Assembly (NCBI RefSeq): GCF_014199535.1
Contig: NZ_JACHNV010000002.1
Location: 248,001 to 312,000, forward strand
Length of the DNA stretch: 64,000 nucleotides
Origin: Hymenobacter latericoloratus
GTDB taxonomy: Bacteria > Bacteroidota > Bacteroidia > Cytophagales > Hymenobacteraceae
Direction of reading: 5' to 3'
Positions 2,918 through 48,352 of this stretch are shown here, one piece after another (position 1 is the stretch's first letter; the number at the start of each line of letters is the position of its first letter). The position numbers and the translations under genes are program-made. The notes below the pieces were generated by a model, which saw only the letters and a program-made list of their open reading frames with translations, searched no databases and had not been told where the DNA came from.

Positions 2918-3301
2918 TTAGTTGCCAGCAAGCTCACCCGTGCTACAGTGGTCGGGGCAGCGGTGGCCCCAATTGCCTACCAGGCCGTCCTCGCCGGTTA
3001 GCTGCCCGTTGTTATCCTTCACTTTCAAGATGTCGTTGCCGTCGCTATCTACACCTACCACAATTATATGGCGCTCCTTATTGGCATCGACTGCCTGATA
3101 GAAGCGCAGCCCCACGCAACGTGGCTGCTCCATAAACTTCTGAAGAAAGTCGTTGTCGAAGTAAGTCGCGTACAGCACTTTCTTTACGGTACCATCATCT
3201 GCTAACTGCGGATGCTCTTTGCGGTAGGTTTTGGTCCAGTCGGCGGCCTCTTGGATGTTGGGGAAGAACTTGCCGGCTTCGGCAGTGAAGGGAGTGCTCA
3301 T
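2918..3301 (-). CDS. Small CPxxC-tailed protein, copy B (unknown family)
   Basis: 127 residues, no signal peptide or membrane segment. It is a paralogue of the protein at 4083-4469. Shared features, in order, are a DWTKTYREH-like stretch near residue 25, a QPRCVGLRFYQ / QPGCTGVRAYY motif near residue 60, a hydrophobic strand (HIIVVGVDSDGNDIL against RLVLVGTDAQDNDML), and a C-terminal CPDHCS / CPPACS pair of cysteines. The conserved cysteines suggest a metal- or redox-sensitive tail (inference). ATG at 3301 starts the part similar to the paralogue; the frame is open ten codons further upstream. The membrane-protein gene B follows after 62 bases. Confidence 0.75.
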   Translation of the reverse strand: MSTPFTAEAGKFFPNIQEAADWTKTYRKEHPQLADDGTVKKVLYATYFDNDFLQKFMEQPRCVGLRFYQAVDANKERHIIVVGVDSDGNDILKVKDNNGQLTGEDGLVGNWGHRCPDHCSTGELAGN

Positions 3302-3407
3302 GCGACAATAGAAAGTAAGAAGAGAAGGCAAGCAAGAATCTCCTGAGAAGTGATGCTTTGCATGGTAGCAGAGGCTGGGCCGTAAGCTACAAAGGCCGAG
3401 GTAGAGT

Positions 3408-4073
3408 TCAGGGCTTCGTCAAATAAAAAGCATAGAACAAGCTGCCGCTCAGCACGCAGAGCATTATGCTATTCACCGAATAAAGGAGGGCAGTGCCAGC
3501 CGCGTCATTCGTTGCTATAAAGTGGTTGCTGAGGCTGTACACCATAATAGTGCCGGCCAAATAAAGCACTATGCCCATGCAGGCGACCACCAGCGGCCGG
3601 GCCAGCATAGGTACGGAGGAGGCAGGAGCTTGATGCAGCTCCTGCTCAAAGTAGAGCAGGCCCAGCAGGATACCCAGGAAACCCTCCAAAGACAAGGTAT
3701 AGCTATTGAGCCGCGTGAAGCCTTCCAGCACCCAGGAATCCAGGCAGGCAAAAGCTAGAAACGCGACTAAGGTAGGCGCAAACCAGTAGCGCGGCAGCCG
3801 CCTGAGAGCGGCACGGAAAGCGAACAGGTACAGTATCGTTTCGCCTACACTGGCGCAGTGGGCAAGGATAATGTTGTTATGCCACACGCGCGCAGCTACT
3901 CGCATCAGTAAGTACACTACCAGCATGTAAGCTGCCAGGTATGCCAGTATGCGCAGAGACGAAGACAGAGAGCCCCAGCGGCGCCCAGCCATAAGCAACG
4001 GAAATACCAGGCTCCAGTACGCCACCGGCTCCGACCAGTCCGCGAGTTGAATTACCCAAGGCGAAACAGCCAT
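3408..4073 (-). CDS. Seven-helix membrane protein, copy A
   Basis: 221 residues with about seven predicted membrane helices and no large loops. It is a paralogue of the membrane protein at 2136-2855 (N-N-x4-H motif with a downstream Glu, YLFAF, then LDSWVLEGFTRLNSYTLSL aligned with LDALFLGGI...NLYSN). The function is unknown; size and topology recall membrane sensors rather than transporters. It starts only 9 bases after the stop of small-protein gene A, so the two are almost certainly co-translated. Unlike copy B it has the GC-rich codon use of the surrounding genome. The next gene, small protein B, begins 106 bases downstream, so the pair may have duplicated as a unit. Confidence 0.7.
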   Translation of the reverse strand: MAVSPWVIQLADWSEPVAYWSLVFPLLMAGRRWGSLSSSLRILAYLAAYMLVVYLLMRVAARVWHNNIILAHCASVGETILYLFAFRAALRRLPRYWFAPTLVAFLAFACLDSWVLEGFTRLNSYTLSLEGFLGILLGLLYFEQELHQAPASSVPMLARPLVVACMGIVLYLAGTIMVYSLSNHFIATNDAAGTALLYSVNSIMLCVLSGSLFYAFYLTKP

Positions 4074-13934: not shown

Positions 13935-13947
13935 GGAGGTGACAGGA

Positions 13948-14258
13948 CTGGCGGCAGACTTCTGGCCGGAGGCCAGGCGTCTGCCCGCCGGCCAATGGGG
14001 CAAGTCTCCCGACTTGCGGCCGCCGCAGGCGGCCACCTCGCGTCTGGGCCGTTTGAGTGCGCAAGAGGGGTAGTAGATGTTGGCTGAAGGCCAGAAGCAG
14101 ATGGATTGAACAGTTCCGGCAGAGCGAGGAGTGGGTGGCTCCACGCGGCGCGAATGGAGCAGACGCGGGGTGGCCGCCTGCGGCGGCCGCAAGTCGGGAG
14201 ACTTGCCCCATTGGCCGGCGGGCAGACGCCTGGCCTCCGGCCAGAAGTCTGCCGCCAG
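13948..14258. repeat. REPIN-like element, locus 1: two 98-nt arms in inverted orientation
   Basis: The arms at 13948-14045 and 14161-14258 are reverse complements with one mismatch over 98 bases, separated by 115 bases. Each arm contains smaller dyads, for example CAAGTCTCCCGACTTG. GGTGA repeats stand just outside the left arm (13931-13943) and TCACC repeats outside the right arm (14268-14300). The element fills the 374-base gap between the gene ending at 13934 and the CinA-like gene. A second locus of the same family is at 48034-48352. No reading frame in it looks coding. Confidence 0.9.
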
Positions 14259-14308
14259 TATGCCCCGTCACCCCCTCACCTCATCACCATTCACCTCTCC
14301 CCCCAAAA

Positions 14309-26444: not shown

Positions 26445-27236
26445 ATGCAAAAAATGGTAGGGTGGTTTATGCTGGTGATAGTCGGGTGGGCGGTGCCGGA
26501 GGTTGCGCGGGCTACCGCCCAGATACCCGACCTTCTGCTCTATCAGGGTGACACGCTGTATCTGCCGGAAAGTCCGCTCGAAACTTACTTCGAGGGTCGA
26601 AAGGATGCACCGTGCCGCCTGACGCCGTGCGTCCAATCCAGCAACTGACGCTGCTATCAGGCCACCTGGGCCATTGAGAATCAACAGCTTTATTTGCTGG
26701 CCATTACACCGACCTGTGCGGAAAGCGCTAAGCAAATCCAGTTGCGGCGCTGGTTCCGGCCTGATGTGAGGGGTAGGGTGAAAGCCAGCTGGGTAAGCGG
26801 GCCGCTGACGTTGGCGGACCCGGCCTCAGAGGTTGGAGGGTTTTATCCGGCGTATCTCTGCCAATGGTATGTGCAGGTGCTGCGGGGGGCAATTCAATCC
26901 GCGCCATTGCCTGCTGGGAGAAAGTTGTGGAAGAATCTACCTCTGGAAGAAATAAAGCAGCGTTACTGTGAAGCGCGGCGCCTGATGACGCCGGAGGAGC
27001 GGCATTACACCGGCATTCATAGCCTGCCGCCGGCTCAGGTGTGGGTGAAAATAGATAGGAGTGTTGCTGAGCCCATAACCGTTCTGGTGGCAGATCGGCC
27101 GGAGCTGGTGCCCGCCGCTTTGCGCGTGATGCGGCAGTACCTGCAGGCGCACCCGCTCCCCAGCTCAGCTCAAGAGCACCCGTGGGCCCTGCCGCTGGTG
27201 TTCGGGAGTGTATATATTGCCTGCGACCAAGAGTGA
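26445..27236 (+). pseudogene. Secreted protein gene interrupted by one in-frame TGA
   Basis: The frame starts at ATG 26445 with a signal peptide (MQKMVGWFMLVIVGW, cleavage near ATAQ), reads IPDLLLYQGDTLYLPESPLE, and is cut by TGA at 26646-26648 (codon 68). The same frame then continues without interruption as RCYQATWAIENQQLYLLAI to the stop at 27236, about 263 codons in all. Uniform codon use on both sides and a continuous frame argue for one gene with a single substitution, most simply TGG to TGA, since Trp would fit before RCYQATW. The second half could start at 26694 but would lack a signal peptide. The family was not recognised beyond being Bacteroidota-like. A sequencing error is the alternative. 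Confidence 0.75.
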
Positions 27237-27264
27237 GCTTCGGGCGCAGGGTTTGCCGACAAAG

Positions 27265-27463
27265 GCAAGCGCGAGGCGGCCCTACCCCCGGTCCGACGCC
27301 GGAGGCGTCCGACCGGTTGACGTCCGCGCCACTGGCGCCGTCGGAGCCGCTTCGCCCTACCCCTCGCCGCCAGCTAAACCCTTACGGCCACAAACGTCAG
27401 CCCGAAGCCAACCGGTCGGACGGCTCCGCCGTCGGACCGGGGGTAGGGCCGCCTCGCGCTTGC
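27265..27463. repeat. REPIN-like element with 55-bp arms and compensated internal hairpins
   Basis: The arms at 27265-27319 and 27409-27463 are reverse complements at 53 of 55 positions, separated by 89 bases. The two differences are paired: the inner dyad is GACGCC-TCC-GGCGTC in one arm and GACGGC-TCC-GCCGTC in the other, so each arm keeps its own hairpin. It lies in the gap between the interrupted gene and the PIG-L gene. The centre (27320-27408) shows no gene. Confidence 0.9.
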
Positions 27464-27522
27464 CCGGAAACAAAGGGAGTGAAACACCATGTAAAGCGTG
27501 CGGTTATCTTCACGCCCTCAAG

Positions 27523-30132: not shown

Positions 30133-30170
30133 TGAGTTGGTGAACTAGTGAAATTGTGAGTTTACTGTTC

Positions 30171-30267
30171 TGTCATCCTGAGCGGAGCGAAGGACCTTAT
30201 CACGTTTGGACCGCTCAAACAGGTAACGTCACACGTGATAAGGTCCTTCGCTCCGCTCAGGATGACA
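30171..30267. repeat. TCATCCTGAGC-family palindromic element, copy 1
   Basis: The 35-bp arms at 30171-30205 and 30233-30267 are perfect reverse complements with a 27-base loop. The core is TGTCATCCTGAGC followed by GAAGGACCTTATC. It lies between the PIG-L gene and the PAP2 gene, ending one base before a possible ATG at 30269. Related copies are at 41141-41242 and, degenerate, 63661-63754. Confidence 0.9.
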
Positions 30268-30295
30268 AATGGGTAAAGCGCTTAAGTATATTACT

Positions 30296-41140: not shown

Positions 41141-41242
41141 TGTCATCCTGAGCACAGCGAAGGACCTTACCCAGCTAGAACAAGTCGTTAAGACAAGGTT
41201 TGTTCTGGCGTGATAAGGTCCTTCGCTGTGCTCAGGATGACA
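41141..41242. repeat. TCATCCTGAGC-family palindromic element, copy 2
   Basis: The 29-bp arms at 41141-41169 and 41214-41242 are perfect reverse complements. Compared with copy 1 (30171) the core changes from GAGCGGAGCGAAGG to GAGCACAGCGAAGG, and the partner arm changes in step. An additional inner dyad (AGAACAA/TTGTTCT) lies in the loop. It separates two leftward genes. Confidence 0.9.
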
Positions 41243-43439: not shown

Positions 43440-43495
43440 TTTACAACAAACAAGCCCTACCTCACTGCAGTGAGGTAGGGCTTGTTTGTTGTAAA
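43440..43495. terminator. 56-base perfect palindrome acting as a bidirectional terminator
   Basis: 28 bases (43440-43467) are directly followed by their exact complement (43468-43495), no spacer, with T/A-rich ends. It separates the convergent genes ending at 43425 and 43515. Confidence 0.85.
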
Positions 43496-48033: not shown

Positions 48034-48352
48034 CTGGCGGCAGACTTCTGGCCGGAGGCCAGGCGTCCGTCCGCCGGCCAATGGGGCAAGTCTCCCGACT
48101 TGCGGCCGCCGAAGGCGGCCAGCTCGCGCCTGCGCCGTTAGGCGTCCGCTCAAATCTCCTACCCCCTCCCCCTTGGCTTCGTGAGCACCAAACCAGCAGG
48201 CATTTTACACACATCTATAAACAAGGCAACTACTCCTAGCAGTGCGAATGGCGCAGGCGCGAGCGGGCCGCCTTCGGCGGCCGCAAGTCGGGAGACTTGC
48301 CCCATTAGCCGGCGGGCAGACGCCTGGCCTGTGGCCAGAAGTCTGCCGCCAG
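48034..48352. repeat. REPIN-like element, locus 2 (same family as 13948-14258)
   Basis: The arms at about 48034-48136 and 48250-48352 are reverse complements with about six mismatches, and match the arms of locus 1. Spacer 48137-48249 is unrelated to the spacer of locus 1. GGTGA repeats lie outside the left arm (48016-48027) and TCACC repeats outside the right arm (48367-48390). Fills the 365-base gap between PAP2 paralogue 2 and the GAF protein. No reading frame looks coding. Confidence 0.9.

Follow-up and report, generated by a model that had tools for sequence, protein, structure and literature searches.

A probable REP doublet without GTAG in a Hymenobacter genome and the RAYT-type transposase linked to such hairpins in related species

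Introduction

In the RAYT systems that have been studied at the bench, the GTAG at the foot of the hairpin is central to recognition. Systems of this kind are known; the bacterial branch considered here is barely described. In E. coli, only one strand is recognised by TnpA-REP, and the mid-stem mismatch is required for activity (PMC8266576). For the Bacteroidetes, the published account of TnpA-REP subclass 2.6, or RAYT group 5, describes genes flanked by atypical structures without GTAG, which were found by hand and have copies elsewhere in the genome (PMC6006769). The CGTC-REPs carry a CGTC tag, an 8-9 bp stem and a 4-5 nt loop and are described as lacking transposase association (PMC3733652). 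We found no description of the Hymenobacter hairpin family in the open-licence literature on palindromic repeats, RAYT and REP. Here we report on an inverted repeat within a 64,000-nucleotide stretch of Hymenobacter DNA (the window), which an earlier note had read as a REP-type unit under selection for the single-strand structure of each arm.

Results

Between the two 55-nt arms of the window element (27265-27319 and 27409-27463) there are exactly two differences, C27299/G27429 and G27305/C27423, and the variant positions pair with each other inside each arm, giving GACGCC-GGA-GGCGTC on the left and GACGGC-TCC-GCCGTC on the right. The earlier note had described this two-position difference, compensated within each arm, and sequence comparison bears it out exactly. 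The stems of its two hairpins also stand, but the loop that it gave on the left, TCC, is that of the other strand (GGA on the plus strand). The arms of the inverted repeat can be extended to 61 nt, at which length they differ at 4 positions, and the whole element folds as RNA at -157.9 kcal/mol, against -95.0 +/- 4.5 in shuffles (n=200, none as good; z -13.9). Its core (27288-27440) holds two 29-nt hairpins in inverted orientation. In agreement with the small hairpin that had been proposed for each arm, every 29-nt unit folds alone as single-stranded DNA, on either strand, into the identical shape, in which two 6-bp segments flank one mismatch and a 3-nt loop closes the stem. With at most 3 mismatches allowed, the core pattern occurs 2 times in the window, against 0.01 expected from shuffles. 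The best Rfam match, a microRNA family, scored 61 bits (E 7.5e-10) where the gathering score is 168, and was rejected as a generic long hairpin. The parts of the element are collected in Table 1.

Table 1. Parts of the inverted-repeat element, in window positions
Feature	Position	Strand	Basis or remark
Left outer arm	27264..27287	.	fully complementary to 27441-27464; locus-specific
Left REP hairpin, C strand CCGGTC-C-GACGCC-GGA-GGCGTC-C-GACCGG, C.C mid-stem mismatch	27288..27316	+	sequence and fold
TTG, inner foot of left hairpin	27317..27319	+	flank conserved in the family (119 oriented hairpins)
95-nt inter-REP spacer	27317..27411	.	own-genome copies hold GTGCTGAC-like and GGGGTAGG blocks, here on the minus strand (21-copy alignment)
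GGGGTAGGG block (CCCTACCCC on the plus strand)	27355..27363	-	among the most conserved spacer parts in own-genome copies
GCTGAC block close to right REP	27396..27401	-	21-copy alignment
CAA, inner foot of right hairpin (TTG on the minus strand)	27409..27411	+	flank conservation
Right REP hairpin, C strand CCGGTC-C-GACGGC-GGA-GCCGTC-C-GACCGG; the compensated pair sets it apart from the left hairpin	27412..27440	-	sequence and fold
Right outer arm of the locus-specific palindrome	27441..27464	.	complementarity to 27264-27287

The outermost 24 nt on the two sides are perfectly complementary (0/24 differences). They gave no match elsewhere in the own genome with E < 0.2 and are locus-specific, lying outside the repeat family; in the orthologous copy of relative G054 the outer arms are imperfectly paired, as read by eye from the alignment. 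The element sits between a 180-aa ORF (26694-27236), for which no Pfam match was obtained, and a downstream gene for a PIG-L-domain protein (Pfam PF02585) whose closest named relatives belong to Hymenobacter species.

Other repeats were seen in the window. A perfect 56-bp palindrome without spacer (43440-43495) contains CCCTACC/GGTAGGG, like the window's outer palindrome. A different repeat family is represented by a ~310-bp element with two copies 34 kb apart (13947-14259 and 48034-48352), whose matched parts are ~89-94% alike and whose inverted arms of 106-107 nt are 93-96% complementary. Inverted repeats with GTCATCCTGAGC...GAAGGACCTTATCACG lie at 30161-30277 and 41141-41242, one of them just downstream of the PIG-L gene, and repeats somewhat like these stand upstream of the PIG-L gene in L058 and L062.

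When the own genome was searched with the window element, 40 of 91 candidates were scored and 50 matches had E<=1e-3, a figure that counts both strands and includes the element. Thirty places besides the window were taken and a profile was built from seven loci; 26 of the 31 loci had a long match to it at E<=1e-8, 7 of these being the profile seed itself. The earlier reading would have failed on a single-locus element, and it survived this comparison. The flagged stretch belongs to a family of roughly thirty copies, each a small mobile element in which two hairpins mirror each other. Alignment of 21 own-genome copies gave a mean column identity of 66%, and in 20/21 the element was non-coding (codon-usage score trained on the window, best frame <=0.05). 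The genes flanking the 21 copies run in the same direction in 6 cases, converge in 2 and diverge in 1, 12 being unclear.

The usual layout of a copy is hairpin, TTG, spacer, CAA, hairpin. When neighbouring hairpins within 220 bp were compared (61 cases), 43 ran from the C to the G strand, 15 had one unclear end and 3 had the same direction. The 25-nt hairpin cores of doublets are separated by 44-170 nt, and the inner stems of the two arms are different in 25/58 doublets. Across the genus, the strict hairpin is present in 29/120 genomes, as counted with a census pattern that misses longer and variant hairpins. Among plasmids there were 11 records, all at <60% identity.

Occupancy was compared for 8 of the 21 aligned copies by means of their flanks. 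At the site of the window element, relative G054 has a copy that has decayed, and at three further loci (L027, L024 and L046) the element is present in some relatives and absent in others, the element-free sites being found in G056 and G054 for L027, in G054 for L024, and in G073 and G054 for L046. Because the intergenic DNA has diverged, no clean empty-site junction could be made out at these three loci in the alignments that were read. The flanks of the element at L027 and at L280 of G073 are 100% identical over 130 bp on each side, against 77-96% at other matched flanks of those two genomes, which suggests a recent exchange.

To follow the stem pairs, hairpins were collected by their outer eight bases on each side, with inner stem and loop left free and the middle position either mismatched or paired. 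This yielded 142 hairpins from ten genomes, in which the copies from other genomes are the best listed matches to the window element, a choice biased to well-preserved, window-like copies. In agreement with the covariation that had been expected among further copies, the pair flagged in the window toggles between C-G (66) and G-C (35) in the 105 hairpins with a nine-base inner part, with 2 T-G wobbles and 2 broken pairs. In the own genome alone (n=18), 12 C-G, 5 G-C and 1 broken pair were counted, and both types are found in G000, G013, G034 and G060. The inner pairs are complementary in 98.4% of cells, against 84.1% with shuffled partners (0/2000 shuffles as high), it being noted that genomes and copies are not independent, so that p values overstate.

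The test was repeated with 33 distinct rows of inner length 9, taken from the 119 hairpins with a CC/GG mismatch. Here 96.4% of cells were paired, and neither this value nor the covariation score was reached in any of 500 shuffles, while the numbers of pairs with both partners changed (2) and of additional pair types (10) were reached in 198/500 and 209/500 shuffles, respectively. The eleven-base inner class (15 hairpins) gave no covariation, with 95.0% paired and 95.2% in shuffles. The stems of the transposase-linked hairpins have double changes at further positions, with pairing by construction, as they were found as hairpins. The stem swap is real and paired, but it rests mainly on one two-state position and few events.

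At mid-stem, 119/142 hairpins have C.C or G.G and 13 have a Watson-Crick pair. In a second list of 75 census-listed hairpins the mismatch was kept in 52 and paired in 18; this is a weaker sample, covering the plus strand of 8 of the 29 positive genomes and sharing part of its rows with the set of 142. In the first sample, genomes with the transposase have a lower share of paired middles (3/77) than genomes without it (10/55, p 0.015); in the second list the values of 4/26 and 14/44 are not significantly different (p 0.16), and the counts with and without enzyme are suggestive only. In G026, 8 of 16 listed hairpins have lost the mismatch (paired) and 8 have kept it. The mismatch is also absent from some transposase-linked hairpins, those of G036 being paired and those of G022 in 2/4.

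Hairpins oriented by the mismatch (n=119 CC/GG of 142) have in common the TTG foot on their inner side. The outer flank is unconserved when genomes are pooled; taken singly, G034 and G060 each conserve some outer bases. Outer flanks were considered as part of the element and rejected, being partly conserved within these two genomes and locus-specific elsewhere. The outer positions are complementary at >=20/24 in 5/58 doublets, a null in which mates were swapped within genomes never exceeding 19. In other genomes, the doublets at L213, L215, L243 and L246 lie, as in the window, in locus-specific outer palindromes (20-22/24 complementary). GNA loops make very stable DNA hairpins. As a mark of the family, the GNA loop was dropped: it was found in 93/111 hairpins of the first sample but in 27/52 of the second, where CTA was common (18), and it marks the window's subgroup only.

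As candidates for the mobilising enzyme, the three Y1_Tnp genes of the own genome were rejected, none having the element within 1.5 kb on each side. Twelve hairpin-bearing relatives hold 27 Y1_Tnp loci (11 relatives had one), and only one of the 27, L174 of G013, had clear element matches. In this genome the ORF P0001, with a product of 197 aa and the motifs NHFH, YIHQNP and WPYSS, has element doublets on both sides. The GGGGTAGGG block was not seen in the copy beside the G013 transposase (L174 971-1081).

Orthologues of the transposase (E<=1e-20) are present in 16/120 genus genomes; the own genome has none at this threshold, its best match being 1.1e-7. Window-type hairpins flank the gene on both sides in G013, G062, G060 and G061, and hairpins of different sequence flank it in G034, G022, G036, G074, G109 and G087. 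Flanking hairpins were thus found in 10/16 genomes with an orthologue, the other six comprising three with none of this kind and three (G012, G090 and G085) in which the gene was unparsable. The strict hairpin is present in 9/16 genomes with an orthologue and in 20/104 without (Fisher p 0.003). The 7/16 orthologue genomes from which it is absent are four with a different hairpin beside the gene and three with none or unparsable. The 20 orthologue-less carriers include the own genome, G019 (60 copies), G050 (38) and G043 (30), a distribution that needs loss, a different enzyme or gaps in the assembly to explain it.

Residues H54, H56 and Y128 are invariant in 15/15 aligned members, which have the HUH motif and single Tyr of RAYT/TnpA-REP, and 15/15 match NCBIfam REP_Tyr_transpos (NF047646) at E<=1e-3. 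P0001 itself scores 54.7 bits with REP_Tyr_transpos (cut-off 80) and 21.4 with Pfam Y1_Tnp (cut-off 23), both below cut-off. The only PDB match of the member profile is TnpA-REP 4ER8 (E 5e-4); a single-sequence structure model was unusable (mean pLDDT 35.7). When placed on the transposase tree, which has full support on only 4/11 inner branches, hairpin type changes 5 times, the minimum, and 0/200 shuffles were as low. At L059 of Hymenobacter coccineus, a RAYT (3252-3845) surrounded by hairpins of its own directly precedes the same PIG-L gene as lies downstream of the element in the window.

Discussion

Our preferred reading, to which we give a probability of roughly 0.87, is that the core of the window element represents a REP doublet (REPIN/BIME), in which two inverted 29-nt hairpins, active in single-stranded form, enclose a spacer. 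Such a non-autonomous element would owe its mobility to a cognate RAYT (a Y1 HUH transposase) that works in trans. For the REP-type assignment made in the earlier note, the strongest support comes from the hairpin pairs that flank a RAYT-type transposase in sister species. Replication or transcription would expose one strand, on which the REP would fold into 6 bp, a mismatch, 6 bp and a short loop. As there is no GTAG, the RAYT would recognise the hairpin by its stem, its mismatch and the inner TTG/CAA foot; it would then cut and rejoin single-stranded DNA via Tyr128, and the doublet would be put at another extragenic site. The own-genome copies are probably stranded, the cognate RAYT being missing there. 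The outer 24-nt palindrome is a separate matter: most likely the element was inserted at the tip of a pre-existing hairpin, or the palindrome was later perfected by template switching. It is rather doubtful, on present evidence, that the GTAG-less RAYT reads mismatch, stem and inner foot while also guarding the mismatch from template-switch repair and targeting the tips of pre-existing hairpins, an enzyme-less genome then keeping a decaying record with its mismatches repaired.

The compensating swaps could instead be a mutational footprint left without selection on the fold, by template switching (quasipalindrome correction) or by gene conversion among copies, both changes arising in one event. 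Template switching is a described mechanism and can create compensated changes in a single step (PMC8794818); two compensating changes in one element alone therefore do not show selection. Consistent with such events, the outer arms of the window are complementary at 24/24 although the orthologous copy of G054 is imperfect. The window and G054 copies also differ in the flagged pair at both hairpins, with the types exchanged and one G054 pair being a T-G wobble (alignment read by eye), and half of the 16 listed G026 hairpins have lost the mismatch. However, template switching should also repair the mid-stem mismatch, and patterns neutral to it gave 119 mismatched against 13 paired hairpins, the second list showing the same preponderance (52 against 18); paired middles were, moreover, rarer with the transposase, significantly so in the first sample only. 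This frequent retention points to selection, and we regard a purely mutational origin as unlikely. The proposal that the single-strand fold of each arm is under selection is thus supported, with the kept mid-stem mismatch as better evidence than the two swaps on which it had been based.

Selection on the hairpins might also act at the RNA level, where they would serve as bidirectional terminators or mRNA-end stabilisers, a role hypothesised for REPs (PMC3733652) that would suit their extragenic position and very stable fold. Against this, hairpin type tracks the linked transposase, polarity and foot are conserved, the directions of the flanking genes vary among the 21 copies, and occupancy differs among relatives. 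An RNA-level role as the reason for which the hairpins are kept is improbable; it could still accompany mobility as a secondary one. Least probable of all is that we are dealing with a classical MITE and that a DDE transposase moves it by reading its terminal inverted repeats as double-stranded DNA: the element is short, non-coding and dispersed and has inverted ends, but no target duplication was seen by eye in the flanks of own-genome copies, and the linked gene belongs to the Y1 HUH type. The 25/58 doublets whose arms differ in their inner stems further argue that each hairpin is kept, and not only arm-to-arm identity.

If the core is a REP doublet as proposed, the worth of the element lies in offering a clean, testable pair of GTAG-less REP and RAYT. 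The ten genomes with linked transposases and diverged hairpins show what remains without GTAG, namely a stem in two parts, an inner foot and, in most cases, a mismatch inside the stem. The family supplies matched enzyme/hairpin pairs, with which recognition could be probed by swapping. Counts of mismatch repair in enzyme-bearing and enzyme-less genomes may, in addition, help to tell selection from template switching.

Among described systems, the RAYT found here resembles subclass 2.6 / group 5, to which it is likened by comparison with the published motif table. As in that group, it occurs in Bacteroidota, the Tyr motif is YIHQNP and is followed by an SS motif (WPYSS), and the gene is flanked by GTAG-less secondary structures with scattered genomic copies (PMC6006769). 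The HUH motif is NHFH here and NH[LIV]H in the subclass consensus, the HUH-to-Tyr distance is 74 residues against a median of 82, and the hairpins are strong, whereas those of subclass 2.6 are called weaker (PMC6006769). A GTAG or GGAG at the 5' foot, the hallmark of GTAG-REPs, is not found, the pooled outer flank being unconserved and the inner foot being TTG/CAA. The hairpins also depart from CGTC-REPs, with a 12-bp stem carrying a mismatch, a 3-nt loop and transposase linkage in relatives. As in GTAG-15 of A. variabilis and CGTC-1 of H. neapolitanus, the doublet can be central in a longer palindrome; the outer palindromes of those families fit a consensus, whereas the clear cases here are locus-specific (PMC3733652).

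The likeness to REPINs extends to two inverted REPs around a spacer, an extragenic position, a tie to a RAYT and compensatory changes (PMC3116915). The ends of the P. fluorescens REPINs are marked by a conserved 16-mer that overlaps the REP (PMC3116915), whereas here the inner TTG foot is conserved and the outer side is unconserved in pooled genomes. By the features that define REPINs and BIMEs, the family has dispersed extragenic copies, inverted REPs at a limited distance and a RAYT association, the last in relatives and not in the own genome. Similarity of the protein to E. coli TnpA-REP is remote (the profile match to 4ER8), and the E. coli REP has an AA-GC bulge and GTAG where the hairpins described here have one C.C (or G.G) mismatch and no GTAG (PMC8266576). 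Both systems nevertheless share an imperfect hairpin with a conserved mid-stem mismatch (PMC8266576), and the need of the E. coli enzyme for this mismatch suggests, by analogy, how recognition may work in Hymenobacter.
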